From assembly GCA_025934735.1 (NCBI GenBank), contig JAICWP010000015.1, positions 1 to 64,000 on the forward strand: 64,000 bases of DNA, read 5' to 3'. Below are positions 2,030 to 36,319 of the stretch, one piece after another. A model generated the notes under the pieces. The model was not told where the DNA came from. It saw only the letters and a list, made by a program, of their open reading frames with translations, and searched no databases. How positions within the stretch are numbered: position 1 is the stretch's first letter; each line of letters begins with the position of its first letter. The position numbers were made by a program, and so were the translations under genes. The DNA is from Terriglobales bacterium (lineage in GTDB: Bacteria; Acidobacteriota; Terriglobia; Terriglobales; Acidobacteriaceae).

Positions 2030-3265
2030 ATGCCGCAACACAACTTCGACATTCTGGTGATCGGCGGTGGGATTGTGGGCTTATCCGCGGCCCTGGAGGC
2101 CAGCCGCCGTTTTCCCCAGCTCCGCCTGGCAGTACTGGAAAAGGAAACCCAGGTAGCCCAGCACCAAAGCGGCCACAACAGCGGCGTCATCCATTCCGGC
2201 ATCTACTACAAACCGGGCTCGCTGAAGGCGCGGTTGTGCGTGCAAGGCGCGGCGGCCATGGTGGAGTTCTGCCGCCAGCACGGAATTCCGCATGAGATCT
2301 GCGGCAAACTAATTGTGGCCACCAGCGAAGCGGAACTGCCGCGTTTGCAGGAACTGCATCGCCGCGGCTTAGCGAACGGGCTGCAAGGGGTCCGGGAACT
2401 GGGGCCGGAACAATTGTGCGAACTGGAGCCGCACAGCGCGGGCATTCGCGCCCTCCATGTGCCCAGTACGGGTATTACCGACTACGCGGCAGTATGCCGG
2501 AAATATGCCGAGATCGTGAGCCGCAATGGCGGGCAACTGTTCACCGGCTCCAGGGTCACAGGAATGGTTCGCCGTGGCCGGGAAACCGTGGTGGAAAGCA
2601 CGCGCGGAAGCTTCGCCGCCATGTTCGTCATCAACTGCGCCGGCCTCTACAGCGACCGCATAGTGCGCATGGCGGGAGAGCGGCCCCAGGTCATCATCAT
2701 TCCCTTTCGGGGCGAGTATTACGAACTCGCGCCCGCGCGGCAAAACCTGGTGCGCGGCCTTATTTATCCCGTGCCGGACCCGGGGCTGCCCTTTCTGGGA
2801 GTGCACTTCACTCGCCAGGTGCACGGCGGAGTGGAAGCCGGCCCCAACGCGGTGCTGGCCTTCAGCCGCGAAGGCTATCGCCGCAGCGACACCGATGCCG
2901 CCGACATTCTCACCATGCTCGCCTTCCCCGGCTTCTGGCGCATGAGCATGAAGCAGTGGCGCACCGGCCTGGATGAGTTCTATCGCTCCTTCAGCAAGCA
3001 GGTGTTCACCCAAGCCTTGCAAAAGCTGCTGCCGGAAATCAGAAGAGAAGACCTGCGGCCCGGGGGCGCCGGGGTTCGCGCCCAGGCGGTGCGGCGCGAC
3101 GGCACGCTGGTGGACGATTTTTATTTCCTGCAGAGCGAGAACATGCTGCACGTGTGCAATGTGCCTTCGCCCGCCGCGACGGCCTCCATTCCTATCGGCC
3201 GCGCCATCGTGGACATGGTGGCCCAAGCACTGGAGCACAGGGGCGCAGCTATGCAACCGCGCTAA
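2030..3265 (+). CDS. lhgO: L-2-hydroxyglutarate oxidase (FAD-dependent)
   Basis: A 411-residue FAD-dependent oxidoreductase of the DAO family, matching the usual LhgO length (about 400-420). The N-terminus has the Rossmann motif IGGGIVGLSAA (residues 11-21), and HNSGVIHSGIYY, a signature of the LhgO/L2HGDH group, follows. The C-terminus carries GAGVRAQAV and a NVPSPAATASIPIG flavin-contact segment. In known members the enzyme oxidises L-2-hydroxyglutarate to 2-oxoglutarate and passes electrons to the quinone pool, acting as metabolite repair or in lysine/glutarate catabolism. It stands alone, 43 bases after the preceding gene and 138 before the macro-domain gene. The ribosome site before ATG 2030 is weak (GGAT). 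A family relative (glycerol-3-phosphate dehydrogenase-like) is the main alternative. Confidence 0.88.
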   Translation: MPQHNFDILVIGGGIVGLSAALEASRRFPQLRLAVLEKETQVAQHQSGHNSGVIHSGIYYKPGSLKARLCVQGAAAMVEFCRQHGIPHEICGKLIVATSEAELPRLQELHRRGLANGLQGVRELGPEQLCELEPHSAGIRALHVPSTGITDYAAVCRKYAEIVSRNGGQLFTGSRVTGMVRRGRETVVESTRGSFAAMFVINCAGLYSDRIVRMAGERPQVIIIPFRGEYYELAPARQNLVRGLIYPVPDPGLPFLGVHFTRQVHGGVEAGPNAVLAFSREGYRRSDTDAADILTMLAFPGFWRMSMKQWRTGLDEFYRSFSKQVFTQALQKLLPEIRREDLRPGGAGVRAQAVRRDGTLVDDFYFLQSENMLHVCNVPSPAATASIPIGRAIVDMVAQALEHRGAAMQPR

Positions 3266-4004: not shown

Positions 4005-5183
4005 TTACGCCGCCTTGGGATCAAGCACCACCTTGGTGCAGTGGTCCTGCTTGTCGCGAAACACTTTGTACATGCGGGGTGCATCGCGCAGAGCCACTCG
4101 ATGGCTGATGACCTCGCTGGGATCAATGGCGCCATCCATGATTTTCTGCAATAACGGCTTCATGTATTTGTGCATGTGGGTCTGACCCATCTTGAAGGTC
4201 AGGCCCTTGCCAAAGGCCGCGCCAAAATTGAGCTTGTTAAGAATGCCGGCATAAACCCCGGGAATGGAGACGATTCCACCCTTGCGGCACGCCTGGATGG
4301 CTTGGCGCAACACCATGGGACGGTCCGTTTCCAGAAACAGCCGGGTTTCAATCTCATCATAGATGCCGCTGGGCGTCATGGCATGCGCTTCCAGACCCAC
4401 AGCATCAATGCAGGCGTCCGGACCGCGGCCGCCGGTGCGGAATTTCAGTTCTTCCACCACATCGTCGCATCGGGAATAGTCCAGCGTTTCGGCGCCGCCA
4501 CGCTCCGCCAGCTGCAGGCGCTCGGGAATACGGTCAATAGCAATCACTCTGGCCGCTCCGAGCAGCTTCGCGCTGCGGATGGCGAACTGCCCAACCGGAC
4601 CGCATCCCCAGATGGCAACCACGTCGCCCGGCTTGATCTCGCAATTCTCCGCCGCCATGTAGCCGGTGGGGAAAATGTCGGAGAGGAAAAGCACTTTGTC
4701 GTCAGGAACGCCATCGGGAATTTTCAGCGGGCCTACATCGGCGAAGGGCACGCGCACGTACTGCGCCTGGCCCCCGGCATAGCCGCCCATCAGGTGCGAA
4801 TAGCCGAACAGGCCGGAGCCACTGTAACCGTACAGTTTCTCCATCATCCAGGCATTGGGATTGGTGTTGTCGCAGGCCGACCACAAGCCGCGTTTGCAGA
4901 AGAAGCACTGCCCGCAGGCGATGGTAAACGGCACCACCACTTTATCGCCACGCTTCAGGTTTTTGACCTCGCTGCCGGTGTCCACCACCTCGCCCATGAA
5001 TTCGTGGCCCAGGATGTCGCCGGCCTCCATAGTGGGGATGAAGCCGTCGTAGAGATGGAGGTCGGAGCCGCAAATCGCGGTCCGGGTAATTTCGATGATG
5101 GCGTCATGAGGGTTAAGAATTTTCGGGTCGGGCACGGTCTCAACCCGTACATCTTCCTTGCCATACCAGCACAGTGCTTTCAT
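4005..5183 (-). CDS. Zinc-dependent alcohol dehydrogenase (formaldehyde dehydrogenase-like MDR)
   Basis: A 392-residue medium-chain dehydrogenase. Catalytic zinc ligands fit C38 and H60-E61 (GHEFMGE). The structural zinc set is C90, C93, C96 and C104 (CGQCFFC...C). A cofactor Rossmann motif, [12 protein letters not shown], lies mid-protein. Length and motifs fit the glutathione-independent formaldehyde dehydrogenase-like branch (FDH_like), which oxidises small alcohols or aldehydes with NAD+. It lies 38 bases downstream of the SRPBCC gene on the same strand, so the two are probably cotranscribed. The ATG at 5183 follows GGAG/GAGAG purines. The true substrate cannot be read; threonine or sorbitol dehydrogenase relatives are less likely because of the FDH-type HEFMGEV and FCKRG motifs. 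Confidence 0.87.
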
Positions 5184-5221
5184 ATCTCTCGTCTCCGGAA
5201 CTTGGGATTGAAGGACACGCG

Positions 5222-5995
5222 TCAGCTGACCACGCGCTGCGCGCCCATTTGTTCGTCCGTGCGGCCGTAACCGCTCGCCGACTTCAGCATGGTCGTGATT
5301 TTGGAGCGGCGGCCGTGAGGCTGCCCATCGGTAGTGGCGATTTCGCCGGCCTCCATCAGCTCCTTGAAGCGGCGCATATCTTCGCGAATCTGCTGCTCGG
5401 GTTCTTCTCCGAAGAGCATGGCGAAAGCAGCTCCCAGCTTGCCCGCGGGCGGCTGGTACATGAGCTCCACCCGCACCTCCGTGCCCCTGCCCTCCGGAGC
5501 ACTCTGGAAGCGCACCGACCCTTGGTTTTCAATCTGCGAGCCGGGCAAAGAGCGCCAGGAGATGAGCTCGTTCTCTCGATCTTCGACGATTTCGGCATCC
5601 CAGCTAAAGCTCTTCCCCAGAGGTCCGGCGCTGACCCACTGCAGTCCCCGGCCGGTGCTGCGCACGGACCGCAGGTGGCGCATGAAACGCGGCAGTTCTT
5701 CGAAGTTGTGCCAGAAGCGGTACAACTCCTCCGGCGGCTTATCAATGCTCACTGCTTTGCGCACATAAATGAGGCTGGACGACCAGCCGCCCTTGGCGGT
5801 GATGCCGCGGTAAACCAGCAGCCCTCCGCCTGCCGCCATGGCGATGCCCAGCGGGGAGCGGCGAATGATACCCAGCGCCGCCAGGGTGGCTCCTCCCGCG
5901 ATCAGCGGAATGCGCAGCGCTTTGGGTGCTCTTTTTCTCTGGTTAACGTTTCGGCGGGCTTTCAGAGCGGGGATGTCAATAAGCTGGGAACTCAT
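5222..5995 (-). CDS. SRPBCC (cyclase/dehydrase-type) protein with N-terminal membrane segment
   Basis: A 257-residue protein. Residues 1-65 are basic, followed by two short hydrophobic stretches ([29 protein letters not shown]), like the DUF2892 inner-membrane domain. From about residue 78 a START/SRPBCC polyketide-cyclase-like domain follows ([27 protein letters not shown]), a hydrophobic-ligand fold. It is the upstream member of a two-gene unit with the zinc alcohol dehydrogenase. A membrane-anchored lipid or aldehyde handling role is plausible but only inferred. No catalytic residues are defined for this subgroup. The start ATG 5995 gives a complete N-terminus, and a divergent SDR gene begins 160 bases away. 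Confidence 0.8.
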
Positions 5996-28515: not shown

Positions 28516-29571
28516 ATGCAGCCAAACAAAGTTCCCGTCGGTGTGCTCGGTGCCACCGGTATCGTGGGCCAGCGCTTCCTGCAGATGCTGGAGCGGCATC
28601 CGTGGTTCGAGGTAGCGTGGCTGGCCGCATCCGAGCGGTCGGAAGGCCGAGCTTATGCAGAAGCGGTGCGCTGGCGGCTGAAAACGCCGATTCCGTCGCG
28701 CGCTGCCGCTCTGCCCGTATCATCTGCTAACCCGGATGGCGCTCCCAAAATCATCTTTGCCGCGCTGGACGCCAGCATCGCAGCCGAACTGGAACCACGC
28801 TTTGCCGCTGCCGGGCATGCAGTGATCTCCAACTCCAGCGCGCTGCGCATGCAAAGGGATGTCCCCTTGGTCATTCCCGAAGTCAATGCCGAACACCTGA
28901 AGGTGTTGGAGTGCCAGTCGTGGCGGCGCCAGAGCGGCGGGTTCGTAGTGACCAATCCCAACTGCTCCGCCATTGGCCTGGTGCTGGCCCTGGCTCCATT
29001 AGAGCAGCATTTCGGGCTGGAGAAGGTGATGGCCGTCACCATGCAGGCGGTCAGCGGAGCCGGCTATCCCGGAGTGGCATCGCTCGACATTCTGGGAAAC
29101 GTAATCCCCTACATCGCCAAGGAAGAAGAAAAGATGGAGGAGGAAACCCGCAAGCTGCTGGGCCAGGTGCGGGATGGGCACATCGAACTGGCGGGATTCG
29201 CCATGAGCGCCCAGTGCAACCGAGTAGCGGTGGAGGACGGGCATACGGAGTCAGTCTCGGTGAAACTGAAGAAGAAAGCAGGCGGAGAGGAGATTATCGA
29301 AGCCTGGCAACAATTCCGCGCGGTTCCCCAGGAATTGAGGCTGCCCAGCGCACCGGAACGGCCGGTGGAGTATTTGCCCTCTTCGGACCGGCCGCAGCCG
29401 CGGTTCGACGTGGACCGGGGAGCAGGCATGACGGCTTGCGTGGGGCGATTACGGCCGTGCGGCGTGCTGGAGTGGAAGTTCACCGTCATTTCGCATAACA
29501 CCATCCGCGGCGCCGCCGGAGCTGCGCTGCTGAACGCCGAATTGCTCAAGGCGCAGGGATACCTGGATTAG
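28516..29571 (+). CDS. asd: Aspartate-semialdehyde dehydrogenase
   Basis: A 351-residue enzyme of the archaeal/fungal-type branch. The NADP motif is GVLGATGIVGQRFLQML (residues 9-25), the catalytic cysteine is C150 in TNPNCSAIG, and QAVSGAGYPGV and ISHNTIRGAAG hold other active-site residues. It reduces aspartyl phosphate to the semialdehyde, the branch point to lysine, threonine and methionine. It is first in the plus-strand series asd-lysC-dapB-dapA, although the 219-base gap to lysC suggests a separate promoter there. Length fits the family. Confidence 0.93.
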   Translation: MQPNKVPVGVLGATGIVGQRFLQMLERHPWFEVAWLAASERSEGRAYAEAVRWRLKTPIPSRAAALPVSSANPDGAPKIIFAALDASIAAELEPRFAAAGHAVISNSSALRMQRDVPLVIPEVNAEHLKVLECQSWRRQSGGFVVTNPNCSAIGLVLALAPLEQHFGLEKVMAVTMQAVSGAGYPGVASLDILGNVIPYIAKEEEKMEEETRKLLGQVRDGHIELAGFAMSAQCNRVAVEDGHTESVSVKLKKKAGGEEIIEAWQQFRAVPQELRLPSAPERPVEYLPSSDRPQPRFDVDRGAGMTACVGRLRPCGVLEWKFTVISHNTIRGAAGAALLNAELLKAQGYLD

Positions 29572-29790: not shown

Positions 29791-31164
29791 ATGCTGGTAA
29801 TGAAATTCGGCGGCACGTCTGTGGAGAATGCCGCCGCCATAAAGCGCGCCGGCGAGATCGTGCGCGGGCGGCTGGCACAGCGGCCGGTATTAGTAGTCAG
29901 TGCCATGGCCAAAGTCACCGACAGCCTGCTGGCCATGGCTCGCGCCGCCGGCGCCGGCGACCGGCACCGCGCGCTGGAGCTTTCGCGGTGCCTGCGCGAG
30001 CGCCACTACACCACGGCCGGCGAACTGCTCGGTACCGGCCTCTTCACCCAATTCCACTCCGAACTGGAAGCCGAATGCGATGCCCTCGATGAACTGCTGC
30101 GCGGCATCGCCGCCGTGGGCGAGCTGACGCCCCGCACCTCCGACCATGTAGTTTCCTTCGGGGAACGGCTGTCCAGCAAATTAGTCCATGCTTCGTTTTC
30201 CGCGCACGGCATGGCGGTTCAACTGGTGGACGCGCGCCAGTGCATCGTGACCGATGCCACGCACACCCGCGCGGTACCCTTACTGGAGGAAACCAACCAG
30301 CGGCTGCGCAGCCGGGTGAAGCCAATGGTGGAGGCGGGCCGGGTGCCGGTAATGGGCGGATTCATCGGGGCCACTGCGGAAGGAATCACGACCACCATCG
30401 GCCGCGGAGGATCGGATTTTTCCGCCGCCATTGTAGGCGCGGCCTTGGGTGCCGAGCGCATCGAGATCTGGACCGATGTCGACGGAATGATGACCACCGA
30501 TCCTGGCATCTGCCCGGAGGCGAAACGTATTAAGGTCCTCTCCTTCGAAGAGGCCGCCGAACTGGCCTACTTTGGGGCCAAGGTGCTGCACCCGGCCACG
30601 GTGCTGCCCGCCATCCAGAAGAACATCCCGGTGTACGTGCTGAACTCGCGTAATCCCACGTGCGAGGGGACGCGCATCACGGCGCAGGCCCCGCAGTGTC
30701 GCAGCACCTTTAAGGCAATTGCCGCCAAGAAGCGCATCACCATTGTGGACATTGTGGCCACGCGCATGTTGATGGCGCACGGATTCATGCGCGCCATCTT
30801 TGAGGTTTTTGACCGGCACCGCTGCGCCGTAGATGTGGTTTCGACCTCGGAGGTGAGCGTGTCCGTCACCGTGGATTCGAACGAGTCGATTCCAGCCATT
30901 GCCGCCGACCTTGCCACGCTGGCGGACGTGAAATACGAGGGGCGCAAGGCGATTGTCTGTTTGGTGGGCGACAACATTCGTGGCACGCCGGGGGTGGCAG
31001 CCAAGGTTTTCACCACGCTGGGCGACATCAATGTACGCATGATTTCCCAGGGCGCTTCGGAGATCAATCTGACCTTCGTCGTAGAAGAAGAGGACGTGCC
31101 CGACGTGGTGCGGCGGCTGCATGGCACGTTTTTCGCGGATCCCGATCCGGAAATCTTTGCGTAA
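29791..31164 (+). CDS. lysC: Aspartate kinase
   Basis: A 457-residue monofunctional aspartokinase. The N-terminus KFGGTSVENAAAIKRAG holds the nucleotide-binding motif; GRGGSDFSAAIVGAALGA and IWTDVDGMMTTDP form the aspartate site. Two ACT domains follow from about residue 310 (FEVFDRHRCAVDVVSTSEVSVSVT; CLVGDNIRGTPGVAAKVFTTL), giving lysine or threonine feedback control in known enzymes. It phosphorylates aspartate, committing carbon to the Asp family. The upstream 219 bases show no lysine riboswitch that I can recognise. The start ATG follows a purine-rich GCCGAGGACGGCGCG segment. Confidence 0.93.
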   Translation: MLVMKFGGTSVENAAAIKRAGEIVRGRLAQRPVLVVSAMAKVTDSLLAMARAAGAGDRHRALELSRCLRERHYTTAGELLGTGLFTQFHSELEAECDALDELLRGIAAVGELTPRTSDHVVSFGERLSSKLVHASFSAHGMAVQLVDARQCIVTDATHTRAVPLLEETNQRLRSRVKPMVEAGRVPVMGGFIGATAEGITTTIGRGGSDFSAAIVGAALGAERIEIWTDVDGMMTTDPGICPEAKRIKVLSFEEAAELAYFGAKVLHPATVLPAIQKNIPVYVLNSRNPTCEGTRITAQAPQCRSTFKAIAAKKRITIVDIVATRMLMAHGFMRAIFEVFDRHRCAVDVVSTSEVSVSVTVDSNESIPAIAADLATLADVKYEGRKAIVCLVGDNIRGTPGVAAKVFTTLGDINVRMISQGASEINLTFVVEEEDVPDVVRRLHGTFFADPDPEIFA

Positions 31165-31251: not shown

Positions 31252-31935
31252 ATGATCCTCCTCATTCTTGGTCGCGGGAAGACCGGCTCACTGGTGGCGG
31301 AAGTGGCGCGCCAGCGCGGACACGAAGTGCGGGTACTGGGCAGCGCCGAAAACCACGGCGCCGCCGGGCTCACCACGGACGCGCTGCGCGATGTGGCAGT
31401 CGTCATTGATTTCACCACTCCGGAGGCTGTGCTCGACAATATCGCCGCCTGCGCGCACGCCCGCAAGAACATCGTAGTGGGCACGACCGGCTGGTACGAA
31501 AAGTTGCCCAACATTCGGGAAATTGTGGCCCAGAGCGGCACCGGACTGCTCTTTGCTTCCAATTTTTCCGTCGGCGTAAACATCTTTTTTGAGATTGCCC
31601 GTGCCGCGGCTGCGGCGCTGCACCACGGCTACAACGGCGAGATCATGGAGCGCCACCATGCGCAGAAGAAAGATGCGCCCTCCGGCACGGCGGCAGTGAT
31701 TCAGAAGATCCTGCGCGAAATTGGGGGCCAAGCACCGGAAATTGTTTCCCTGCGTGAAGGTGAAACCGTCGGACTGCACGAGATCGTGCTGGATTCACCC
31801 AATGACACCATCCGCTTGGCCCATGACGCCAAATCACGGCGCGGCTTTGCTGAAGGCGCGGTGCGGGCGGCCGAGTGGCTGGCCGGGCGCAGCGGCTTTT
31901 TCGAATTCCGCGACATCTGGCGGGAGCTGCGGTAA
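31252..31935 (+). CDS. dapB: 4-hydroxy-tetrahydrodipicolinate reductase
   Basis: A 227-residue enzyme, shorter than the usual 240-275. NAD(P) motif ILGRGKTGSLVAEVA; IDFTTPEAVLDNI and VVGTTGWYEKL form the cofactor site; FSVGVNIFFEIARAAA and the catalytic EIMERHHAQKKDAPSGTA carry the family HH..K.D.PSGT signature. It reduces the DapA product to tetrahydrodipicolinate. It lies between lysC and dapA (52 bases to dapA). The shortness comes from a compact N-terminal loop; no key residue appears missing. Confidence 0.92.
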   Translation: MILLILGRGKTGSLVAEVARQRGHEVRVLGSAENHGAAGLTTDALRDVAVVIDFTTPEAVLDNIAACAHARKNIVVGTTGWYEKLPNIREIVAQSGTGLLFASNFSVGVNIFFEIARAAAAALHHGYNGEIMERHHAQKKDAPSGTAAVIQKILREIGGQAPEIVSLREGETVGLHEIVLDSPNDTIRLAHDAKSRRGFAEGAVRAAEWLAGRSGFFEFRDIWRELR

Positions 31936-31987: not shown

Positions 31988-33430
31988 ATGAATTTACGTG
32001 GCTGCGGCACAGCACTGGTAACGCCCTTTCGCCACGATGGCGCGGTGGACGAAGCGGCGCTCCGCGAACTAGTCGCTTGGCAGGTGGAATCGGGAATTGA
32101 CTTCCTTGTTCCCTGCGGGACCACCGGAGAGACGCCGACGCTTTCGCGCAAGGAATGGCTGCGCGTGATCGAACTGACGGTGGAAGTGGCGGCGGGGCGT
32201 GTGCCCATAGTGGCCGGCGCAACTTCCAACTGCACCCGCGAGGCCATTGAAAAGGCGCGCGTGCTCTCCGATCGGGCGGGCGTGGACGCAATTCTGACCG
32301 CGTCGCCGTACTACAACAAGCCCACGCAGGAAGGCCAGTTCCAGCACTTCCGCGCCATTGCGCAGGCGGTCAAGAAACCACTCATCCTCTATAACGTGCC
32401 GGGTCGAACCGGCGCCAATATCGAGCCGGCCACGCTGGCGCGACTGGCTCACATCCGCAACATCATCGGCGTGAAAGAAGCCAGCGGCAATCTGACGCAG
32501 ATTGTGGAAGTATTCAATGCCGTGCCTGGCAGTTTTTTAGTCTTTTCCGGGGATGACGCGGTGACGTTACCCGTCATTTCGCTGGGCGGGGCGGGAATTA
32601 TTTCTGTGGCGTCCAATGAAATTCCGCGCGAGATGGCAGAGATGACGCGGGCAGCGCTGGGCAACGACTGGGACACCGCGCGCCGGCTGCACCGTAAGTA
32701 CCTGCCCCTGATGCAGGCCAACTTCCTGGAATCAAATCCGATCCCGGTGAAGGCGGCGCTGGCCATGATGGGCAGGATTCGCGAGGTTTATCGCCTTCCG
32801 CTGGTGCGCGTGAAGGAAGATACGCGCGCCAAGCTAGAGAAGGTGATGACTGGCGTGGGACTGGAATTGAGGCCGGCGGAGCCAGCGCCGGCGCGGCGCC
32901 CGCGTCCGTTAACAGCGGCAGCAGCCGCGATCGCGGGCCAACCGCCCGTGGCGGCCGAACCTGCGCCGCCGCTGGAAGCAGCAACCGCCTCACAAGACGG
33001 TGGCGAAACTGGAGAACCGACAGCTGGGGCGGAAGAAACCTATGTTCAATCAGTCGAGGAGGTACCGGCGGCTGCACCCGAGAGCGGTGGCGGCAATGGA
33101 ACTGCCGCGGTCCAGAGCGAACCGGCAGCATCGGTAGCGGTGGCTGAGGAAGTGCCTGCCATCGTATCAGAGGCGCCGGCGCTTCAGGCACCACCCGAAC
33201 CGCCAACATTTTTCTTGTATGAGAGCTGGCAGGCGGGACCGCACAAACTAGTTCTGCACCGTTCCACGTGCGGCATTTGCCGGAGCGGTACCGGCCGCCC
33301 CACAGGCAGCGATGAAGCCCACTCGCGCTGGCACGGGCCTTACACCACGACGCAAGAGGCGCGGGAAACCTCGCGTAGTCTGACCAACATCCTGATCCGC
33401 AGCGAGTGCAAGTGCATGGCGAAAAGCTAG
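31988..33430 (+). CDS. dapA: 4-hydroxy-tetrahydrodipicolinate synthase fused to a C-terminal Cys-rich small domain
   Basis: A 480-residue protein, whereas DapA is normally about 290-300. Residues 1-300 are a complete TIM barrel: T45-T46 in CGTTGETP, Y135 (YNVPGRT, with R140) and the Schiff-base lysine K163 (GVKEASGN). Residues 300-405 are a Pro/Ala/Glu-rich linker. Residues 407-480 form a small domain: HRSTCGICRSGTG, RWHGPYTTTQEA and ECKCM, with C428-x2-C431 and C474-x-C476 as a possible metal site. This resembles a stand-alone family of short CxxC...WxGPF...CxC proteins of unknown role. The barrel condenses pyruvate with aspartate semialdehyde. The frame is continuous, so it is not a sequencing break. 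Convergent with the glycosyltransferase. Confidence 0.92.
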   Translation: MNLRGCGTALVTPFRHDGAVDEAALRELVAWQVESGIDFLVPCGTTGETPTLSRKEWLRVIELTVEVAAGRVPIVAGATSNCTREAIEKARVLSDRAGVDAILTASPYYNKPTQEGQFQHFRAIAQAVKKPLILYNVPGRTGANIEPATLARLAHIRNIIGVKEASGNLTQIVEVFNAVPGSFLVFSGDDAVTLPVISLGGAGIISVASNEIPREMAEMTRAALGNDWDTARRLHRKYLPLMQANFLESNPIPVKAALAMMGRIREVYRLPLVRVKEDTRAKLEKVMTGVGLELRPAEPAPARRPRPLTAAAAAIAGQPPVAAEPAPPLEAATASQDGGETGEPTAGAEETYVQSVEEVPAAAPESGGGNGTAAVQSEPAASVAVAEEVPAIVSEAPALQAPPEPPTFFLYESWQAGPHKLVLHRSTCGICRSGTGRPTGSDEAHSRWHGPYTTTQEARETSRSLTNILIRSECKCMAKS

Positions 33431-33485: not shown

Positions 33486-34562
33486 TTACGCGGCCTTTTG
33501 TGCGCTGCCCTGTCCCAAGACTTGCAGATAGAGCTGCTCGTACCCGTCCCCCATGCGAGCGGCAGAAAACTTCTGCTCGGCATGGCGACGGCAGCTTGCC
33601 GGGTTAATTTCACCGATATGCCCCACCGCTTGGGCCATTTCCTCAACCGAGTCCACCAGAAATCCGGTTGCGCCATGGCGCACCACCTCGGGTAGCGCCC
33701 CCCGCCGAAACGCGACGACGGGAGTGCCACAGGCGGCGGCTTCCATGGCTACAAGCGAACTAGTCTCCTCGGCCAGGCTGGGAATCAGCAGAGCCCGGGC
33801 ATGGCTGAGAAGATGGACCTTCTGCTCCGGGGTGGGGGCTTCAGCGAAGCACACACGCTGCAATTTATCGTCTAAATGAGGCGCGATCTCGCGCTGAAAA
33901 TATTGCTGGTGATAGCTGAAGGGGTAAACCTGTCCAGCAAGAATGAGCGGCAGGCCAGCCAAATGCGCAGCCTGAATGGCGAGATGAGGACCCTTCTCCG
34001 GGCAGATGCGGCCGAGCCACAAAAGATAGGAGTGCTTGCGCGCAGTCCACGGAAATCGTTCCACTTCGATGCCATTTCGCACTACGCCGAACAGGCGGGG
34101 AAAGTCCGAGAAGGAACGCGCTTGCGATTCCGAAACACAGCTGAACCCGACATTCAAAGGAATGTTCTCAAACATCTGCGGCGAGTAGAAGGGTCGTGGC
34201 AGATGCAGAGTCGCCAGCGCGGGAAGGCTCAATACAGCAGCGTGCGGCCAGAAGGTGCCGCTCATGTCGTGAATAAGATGGAACCGCCGGTGAGTTCGCT
34301 GGCGCCGGGCGAGAAACTGCAGAATGGCTCGATTATGTTCAGCATCGCGCTGGGGCAAAGCGTCCGGCCGCTCAGGAGGGGGGCCTGTGGGCAGCAACTC
34401 GCCTGCCGCCTGGGAACCGTCGCAAGCGGCAAGCATGGTGCTATGACCGCGCTGCGCCATCTGGCACTGGGTGACCCGCAGCATCTGCTCGGCGCCGCCG
34501 GCGCTGGCTTCCGAAACCGGCAGCAGCGGGTAAGCGATATAGAAGATGCGCAAGCAAGTCAT
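33486..34562 (-). CDS. Family 4 glycosyltransferase
   Basis: From ATG 34562 the protein has 358 residues; the open frame reaches 34718, but those 52 codons lie inside the PIG-L gene and look unlike protein. GT-B fold: IAYPLLPVSEASAGGAEQM at the N-terminus (nucleotide-sugar glycine loop), LWLGRICPEKGPHLAIQAA, and the C-terminal donor site ALLIPSLAEETSSLVAMEAAACGTPVVAF with the EX7E-like spacing. Donor and acceptor unknown. The ATG overlaps the PIG-L stop as ATGA, so the pair is translationally coupled, suggesting a sugar transfer followed or preceded by N-deacetylation. Confidence 0.87.
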   Translation of the reverse strand: MTCLRIFYIAYPLLPVSEASAGGAEQMLRVTQCQMAQRGHSTMLAACDGSQAAGELLPTGPPPERPDALPQRDAEHNRAILQFLARRQRTHRRFHLIHDMSGTFWPHAAVLSLPALATLHLPRPFYSPQMFENIPLNVGFSCVSESQARSFSDFPRLFGVVRNGIEVERFPWTARKHSYLLWLGRICPEKGPHLAIQAAHLAGLPLILAGQVYPFSYHQQYFQREIAPHLDDKLQRVCFAEAPTPEQKVHLLSHARALLIPSLAEETSSLVAMEAAACGTPVVAFRRGALPEVVRHGATGFLVDSVEEMAQAVGHIGEINPASCRRHAEQKFSAARMGDGYEQLYLQVLGQGSAQKAA

Positions 34563-35344
34563 GATGGTGAAGCGGGCGCAAGTTCCGCCGATTGCAGGAA
34601 ATTGGCGAACGCGGCGCTGACTTCCGTGCCCTTGATGGGCCAGCCCCAGGCTTCGTAGTTCAGCACTCCGGAATGCGGGGGCTGCGAGTAGTCGTAAGCA
34701 GCCTGTGGACGGAACCATTCGGTTGCCGCGCTGAACTGCTTCAGCACCTCGCCCTGAGAAGCATAGGCGGCCAGCACCTCATGTTTCGTTTTCTGCTCTT
34801 GCGGCGTGGGTTCCAGCGGGATTTCCGAACCGTTCAGGGAGCGAAACTGCTGGCATAAGGCTGCGCCATCGGTTCTGCGGAAATAGAGCGGCATCTCCCA
34901 GGCGGGCAGCGAAAACTTTCGCGCCAACACAGAGGTCAGGAAGCTGCAACTGTCGTGGTCCGGGTGGCCGCCCTCGTAAGCAAGCGTGAGCAGGGCCTGG
35001 GGACTGCGGCGACGGACCAGGGCAGAAAGGCTCTCCAGAGCCGCGCCCAGGCAGCGAAACAGCTCCTGATCCGTAAAGTAACCTTCGCCGGCTTTCAGGA
35101 ATTCGATATGGCGCACGCCTGCCTGGCCGAGCGCCGTCCGGGCTTCGCGGCGGCGCAGATCGGCGTAGGCTTCGCGGGAACCGGTCTTCTCCCAGAAATA
35201 GCGGTCATGGGGGGCGCCGTCGGTAGCGAAGACCACCACCGGCTCGCTCATGCGCTGCAGCAGGGCACCGCAGCCCACAGCTTCGTCGTCCGGGTGCGCG
35301 ATGAGGATCAGCGTTTTCTGCAGCAAGGGCGCGAGGGCGTCCAT
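34559..35344 (-). CDS. PIG-L/LmbE-family deacetylase
   Basis: A 261-residue zinc-dependent N-deacetylase. The signature H17-P-D-D-E21 (LIAHPDDEAVGCGALL) is followed by ATDGAP and a second metal motif H127...H130-D131 (YEGGHPDHDS). Known members deacetylate GlcNAc-containing glycosides, for example in mycothiol, bacillithiol or lincosamide-type pathways. It shares a four-base ATGA overlap with the downstream family 4 glycosyltransferase and lies 141 bases after dapD. Its real substrate is unknown; the other genes of thiol pathways (BshC- or MshC-like) are not seen in this window. Confidence 0.87.
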   Translation of the reverse strand: MDALAPLLQKTLILIAHPDDEAVGCGALLQRMSEPVVVFATDGAPHDRYFWEKTGSREAYADLRRREARTALGQAGVRHIEFLKAGEGYFTDQELFRCLGAALESLSALVRRRSPQALLTLAYEGGHPDHDSCSFLTSVLARKFSLPAWEMPLYFRRTDGAALCQQFRSLNGSEIPLEPTPQEQKTKHEVLAAYASQGEVLKQFSAATEWFRPQAAYDYSQPPHSGVLNYEAWGWPIKGTEVSAAFANFLQSAELAPASPS

Positions 35345-35485
35345 GAGGAAGTGAGATGCAGGTTAATTGACGATTGTTTGATTGCCGCTTGACGAAAGAG
35401 CACCTAATCAGCAGCTGTTAACACTCAGCCTCTAAACGTCTCCGTCACGTTCGGAAAGTTCGGTCGCTAAATGCTACTTGCTGCC

Positions 35486-36319
35486 TCACCGCAGCCAATC
35501 TTCCAGCTCAATGGCCCGATCGGTGCGCTCATCACGGTATTTGACGATTACGGGGGTGTAAAGCGACAAGTTCCACTCCGCCGCTTTGCCTTTGCCGATG
35601 GCACGCGAGCCTGGCACAACCACGGCATTTTCAGGCACAGTAAGGGGCGCCTCCGCGCTGGCCCGGTAGACCTCGCCCCGCACAATGTCAAAAAGCGGAG
35701 TGGAGCGGGTCAGGATAGTGCCAGCGCCCAGCACCGCGCGCGCCCGCACCCACGTGCCCTCGTAGACGCCGCAGTTGCCGCCCACCAGCACATCGTCTTC
35801 AATCACCACGGGCGCGGCGTTCACCGGCTCCAGCACGCCGCCGATCTGGGCGGCCGCGCTCAAGTGGACGCGCTTGCCAATCTGAGCGCACGAGCCGACC
35901 AGCGCATGCGAATCCACCAGCGTGCCTTCATCCACGTAGGCGCCTACATTGATGTACATAGGCGGCATGCAGATGACGGACGGCGCCACGTAAGCGCCCT
36001 GGCGGACGGAGGAGCCGCCGGGCACCACGCGCACCCGGTCGGCGGGCCGGAAGCGGCGTAGCGGGAAAGTGTCCTTGTCCACGAACGATAAAGCTCCGCC
36101 TTCTCCCGTTTCCTGCAATTCGCCCAGGCGGAAGCCGAGCAGGATGCCCTGCTTCACCCAGGCATTCACCACCCAGCGATCGCCTTTTTTTTCGGCGGCG
36201 CGAATACGGCCCTGGCTCAACGCCTCGCGAAATTCCAGGAACGCCTGGCGTGCCTCCTGCGTGTGCTCTCCCATGGCCATCGCGAACAAATGCTCGATGG
36301 TAGTTTTCAGGTCTGCCAT
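35486..36319 (-). CDS. dapD: 2,3,4,5-tetrahydropyridine-2,6-dicarboxylate N-succinyltransferase
   Basis: A 277-residue left-handed-beta-helix acyltransferase. The N-terminal domain ([10 protein letters not shown] ... [18 protein letters not shown]) is typical of DapD, then hexapeptide repeats: [27 protein letters not shown] (shown in part), [27 protein letters not shown] and [24 protein letters not shown]. It transfers succinyl from succinyl-CoA in the succinylase branch of diaminopimelate synthesis, the route implied here with dapA and dapB on the opposite strand. Length is normal. It heads the minus-strand set with PIG-L and glycosyltransferase genes. Confidence 0.92.

Follow-up and report, generated by a model that had tools for sequence, protein, structure and literature searches.

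A conserved, unnamed cysteine-rich domain fused to the sole DapA of a Terriglobales bacterium and of many relatives in its family

DapA, a textbook example of a branch-point enzyme, is also a target for antibiotics; it is normally a tetramer, and its known control is exerted by lysine at the dimer interface. In the window, by which we mean the whole 64,000-nucleotide stretch of Terriglobales DNA analyzed here (contig JAICWP010000015.1), DapA is like the described members of its family (TIGR00674; PF00701) in its full barrel, in all of its catalytic residues, in being the sole DapA of the genome and in lying in an asd-lysC-dapB-dapA cluster, but differs from them in a 190-aa C-terminal extension with a folded Cys-rich domain and in having Trp in place of His56 in the lysine site. 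A first-pass annotation, made from the letters of the sequence, had described a DapA joined through a long linker to a Cys-rich domain, and its coordinates and strand were confirmed: 31988-33430 on the forward strand reads as a single 480-codon ORF without interruption, with a product of 480 aa. The positions it gave for C428, C431, W448-HGPY, C474 and C476 were exact on residue check, which also placed a further Trp of the tail domain at 414; the linker and domain are both there, but at 117 and 73 aa as judged by conservation rather than at 105 and 74 (Table 1). The composition of the linker (residues 291-407) is A30, P20, E16.

Table 1. Coordinates of the fused dapA gene, its pathway neighbors and two relatives of the domain outside DapA (window positions unless a locus is named)
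Feature	Position	Strand	Basis or remark
asd-like gene (aspartate-semialdehyde dehydrogenase), same pathway	28516..29571	+	named from sequence; same order in L027
lysC, aspartokinase with ACT domains	29791..31164	+	PF00696, PF22468
dapB-like gene directly upstream of dapA	31252..31935	+	named from sequence; same order in L027
DapA catalytic barrel, residues 1-290	31988..32857	+	TIGR00674, PF00701, residue table
Ala/Pro/Glu-rich linker, residues 291-407 (117 aa), pI 4.1	32858..33208	+	conservation
Cys-rich C-terminal domain, residues 408-480 (73 aa), predicted beta-beta-beta-alpha-beta	33209..33427	+	conservation, AlphaFold2
H424-R-x2-C428-x2-C431, candidate first half of metal site	33257..33280	+	conservation in homologues
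W448-H-G-P-Y motif	33329..33343	+	conservation in homologues
C474-K-C476, candidate second half of metal site	33407..33415	+	conservation in homologues
Stop codon of dapA ORF	33428-33430	+	
dapD, tetrahydrodipicolinate N-succinyltransferase, 2 kb downstream of dapA	35486..36319	-	PF14805, hexapeptide repeats
L076 (G431), 72-aa standalone, H-x3-C-x2-C, WHGP, C-x2-C	3016-3234	+	
L079 (G177), domain at N terminus of 290-aa protein	4557-5429	+	

The barrel matches TIGR00674, the DapA equivalog model, over residues 8-288 with 347.7 bits against a cut-off of 206.15 (E 3e-104), PF00701 also matches it in a Pfam search, and the active-site residues T44, T45, Y107, Y133, R138 and K161 are all present (numbered on the E. 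coli DapA sequence, found identical to 1dhp_A). The fused DapA is the only TIGR00674 match in the genome at E <= 1e-70, and two more distant DHDPS-superfamily proteins are encoded elsewhere in it. The pathway operon neighborhood is kept between the window and a relative (L027), in which dapD directly follows dapA on the same strand, whereas the dapD of the window is inverted. On the reverse strand (33486-36319), two genes that by eye are glycosyltransferase-like and PIG-L-deacetylase-like lie between dapA and the inverted dapD. Neither a lysine riboswitch nor any other Rfam element was found near the operon (Rfam, window 20-45 kb).

Searching with the domain alone against 60 relatives gave strong matches (50-63% identity) in 13 further genera, one in each, all of them in this family of soil Acidobacteriota; matches elsewhere were weak. 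A family-wide survey then placed the domain in 111 of 398 genomes, which fall in 33 of the 79 genera; in five of these genomes (3 genera) it is part of another protein, and about 106 genomes thus have the DapA-type domain, so that the extension is shared by the acidobacterial homologues of about 30 of the 79 sampled family genera. We read 39 distinct complete fused proteins, each with barrel and domain in one frame, and judged the remaining loci by profile score, those of DapA type having equal scores and mostly frames of similar length; a Candidatus Sulfotelmatobacter MAG (Acidobacteriota) is a named record among the fused set. Nearly all fused proteins are 374-379 aa long with a linker of ~18 aa, the short-linker form hardly departing from 375-376 aa, and among those read, linkers of ~115 aa occur only in the window and in one relative (G010, locus L019). 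Thus the Cys-rich fusion proposed in the first-pass annotation is common in the family, but the long linker that went with it is confined to these two, and neither outcome that would have spoken against it was seen: relatives share the domain, and no frame error separates it from dapA. Nothing speaks for an erroneous frame or an artefact of assembly, a reading that is excluded, with next to no probability left to it, because independent genomes carry the fusion: it is found in many independent assemblies and in the public record JASHNU010000038.1, with the long-linker form seen again in G010. Two phylum-wide genome samples yielded no clear domain match outside the family, and the five matches at E about 0.001-0.01 in one of them all contain stop codons. 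Around dapA in 12 non-fused relatives, domain remnants did not rise above chance. No relative was returned when IMG/VR was scanned with the domain, or by a DNA-pattern scan. Five loci (L022, L023, L025, L026, L028) were on reading rejected as chance matches, L025 being the antisense of a radical-SAM-like gene, as were most of the weak plasmid and phage tblastn matches.

Within the domain, 20 of ~70 columns are invariant in 15 relatives, and because of this invariance, together with the recurrence of the architecture across the family, we conclude that the fusion is not due to chance. The near-universal motifs are E-x-W, GP-x-K, HR-x2-C-x2-C, WHGP, R and LIRSECKC; H424 and the first Cys (C428) are invariant in 46 of 46 aligned homologues, as are W, G and P of the WHGPY motif, and C474-K-C476 is invariant in the 39 fused proteins. 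Median dN/dS (Nei-Gojobori counts, pairs of moderate divergence) was 0.07-0.08 in the barrel and 0.08-0.10 in the domain, with the linker higher at 0.14-0.25, showing that purifying selection on the tail domain matches that on the enzyme in strength. These values, with about 20 invariant columns, make it quite improbable that the tail is a passenger close to neutral or does no more than stabilize or solubilize the protein, a view favored by the many relatives that keep DapA without a tail and by the very long linker tolerated in the window. Given that non-fused relatives in the same family live without it, the tail is not essential to catalysis. As for its origin, fused rows stood in two spots in a first quick DapA tree, but two independent fusions were not borne out: a one-clade constraint gave a better likelihood (+22), and a tree with all fused rows as one clade was not rejected (p-AU 0.756), so that the DapA tree agrees with a fusion that happened once. 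One fusion is the simplest account, the linker having expanded later in the lineage to which the window and G010 belong, and some relatives may have lost the tail.

AlphaFold2, run on a 79-residue construct with a domain alignment without plasmid rows, returned a confident fold (pLDDT 87.8, pTM 0.77) with strands at construct residues 7-12, 19-24 and 45-51, a helix at 54-63 and a strand at 69-72, in which one Cys pair comes after strand 2 and the other after strand 4. A full-length homologue was modeled with the same elements, a linker pLDDT below 50 and an overall pTM of 0.73, and for this reason the tail reads as an independently folded small module on a flexible tether. The tail of the window had no sequence match in Pfam, NCBIfam or PDB, those of 41 homologues gave only chance-level matches to Pfam/NCBIfam (best E 0.11), and Foldseek with the predicted domain found no convincing match in PDB (best E 1.4); the domain, searched alone, is a real conserved module that recurs as a DapA fusion and is unnamed in Pfam/NCBIfam. 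Against viral models the best Foldseek match had E 0.06, and the weak matches included several GIY-YIG or NUMOD proteins, which we take as a lead only. Small Cys-rich modules often bind nucleic acid, and this habit, the domain pI of 9.2 (residues 408-480) and the weak viral matches to GIY-YIG or NUMOD nuclease proteins could be read as pointing to a nucleic-acid binder through which DapA moonlights on RNA or DNA, for instance in autoregulating its operon. We regard this as unlikely, in that the best such match stands at E 0.06 and the rest are weaker, and in that the domain has no sequence match to a known nucleic-acid-binding family; its resemblance to GIY-YIG / NUMOD nuclease-associated domains is not significant in fold (best viral Foldseek E 0.06), and Pfam gave no match. 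A working analogy is with small zinc-binding domains of the Cys4 kind, such as the zinc ribbon or the treble clef, which likewise have two Cys pairs set apart by a structured stretch, although the tail matches no solved one in sequence or fold and is predicted to have a helix between its third and fourth strands. Of the 39 fused proteins, 38 have all four Cys, and with them the two conserved pairs of a zinc-ribbon-like site, the exception being L019, which is without the second Cys. Metal binding by the tail is plausible; against a zinc site, besides L019, are two relatives outside DapA (L075 and L077) without the last Cys.

The pocket through which lysine exerts feedback in Gram-negative DapA (S48, A49, H53, H56, N80, E84, Y106) is not found intact in the window DapA, which has N80, E84 and Y106 as in E. 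coli but T48, P49, R53 and W56 at the other positions; this pocket is a trait of regulation and does not define the catalytic family. Position 56 in E. coli numbering is encoded at 32155-32157, with Trp where the lysine site usually has His. In reported mutants, feedback was removed by H56K and E84T and weakened by A49P (review, PMC10464499), and because the pocket residues differ at the window's enzyme, its lysine sensitivity is likely altered. The differing pocket, the H56K and A49P effects and a linker length that is nearly fixed in 36 of the 39 fused proteins would fit a tail that senses an effector (a small molecule, a redox signal or zinc) within the molecule and serves as a new allosteric arm on its own barrel, beside or instead of the lysine site. 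Yet nearly every DapA of the family has W56, whether fused or non-fused (most DapAs sampled from the class's other families have His), and the tail therefore does not go together with the altered pocket; moreover, the full-length model shows a loose tether with no docked domain, and the window tolerates a linker of 117 aa. We therefore consider an intramolecular sensor rather improbable. The notion that the tail replaced lysine feedback, with W56 tied to the fusion, found no support, since W56 is present in both groups; the Trp change does not link the tail to a loss of feedback.

The domain also occurs outside DapA. The standalone relatives carry CxxC + CxxC, and L075 and L077 hold the domain within other short proteins. 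The standalone L076 has a PIN-domain gene on one side and a gene resembling coaD on the other. The protein of L079, which has no Pfam match and contains a basic stretch and a hydrophobic segment resembling a membrane span, is a second architecture in the same family. Two rhizobial plasmids, Bradyrhizobium p186_1 and Mesorhizobium 113-3-3, carry broken, unannotated copies of the standalone domain (L029, about 1991-2130; L034, about 1500-1707), one with a frame break and the other with a stop codon. The unnamed standalone proteins (L076 and the plasmid remnants) share with the tail a Y-x-W start, H-x3-C-x2-C, W-x-G-P and a closing Cys pair, but are not fused to DapA, close with CxxC rather than the CxC of the window and, on both plasmids, are broken. 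Identity to the window's domain is 50-66% for DapA-type domains vs. 28-39% for free relatives. Since free relatives exist, the domain is a module with a life outside DapA and not a private invention of the enzyme. We might go further and picture an uncatalogued domain family, free in some bacteria, that DapA captured once in a single acidobacterial family and that was turned into a dedicated zinc- or partner-dependent control arm for lysine and cell-wall synthesis in a lineage with an altered lysine-feedback site, a scenario that we find doubtful.

The reading we favor, tentatively and with somewhat less than even confidence, is that the tail is an interaction module, probably zinc-stabilized, for docking or control on the sole DapA. 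The mechanism would run as follows: 1) the genome's sole DapA is made as a fusion of the barrel with a small domain, predicted to be folded and on a flexible tether; 2) the four Cys, with the invariant His nearby, would most likely hold one zinc ion that stabilizes the fold; 3) because DapA is normally a tetramer, four modules would be displayed per enzyme; 4) the module would most likely bind a partner, be it a protein of the diaminopimelate/cell-wall pathway or a regulator; and 5) partner binding would localize or tune flux into lysine and peptidoglycan precursors. A point against this reading is that Foldseek matched no known zinc-binding or interaction fold. The interpretation in the first-pass annotation is supported in part: a housekeeping enzyme does carry a real, folded Cys-rich module that is conserved and that relatives have as well, and the new kind of regulation or localization inferred from it would be a further, putative step. 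We found no description of the fusion in the open-licence literature searched; what is new here is a known enzyme carrying an unnamed, conserved extra domain. As this domain is unnamed in Pfam/NCBIfam, it offers a handle on a small uncharacterized protein family, and the function of the tail is approachable through the well-understood DapA enzyme assay. A folded extra domain on the sole DapA, selected as strongly as the barrel itself, points to control or docking at a level so far undescribed.
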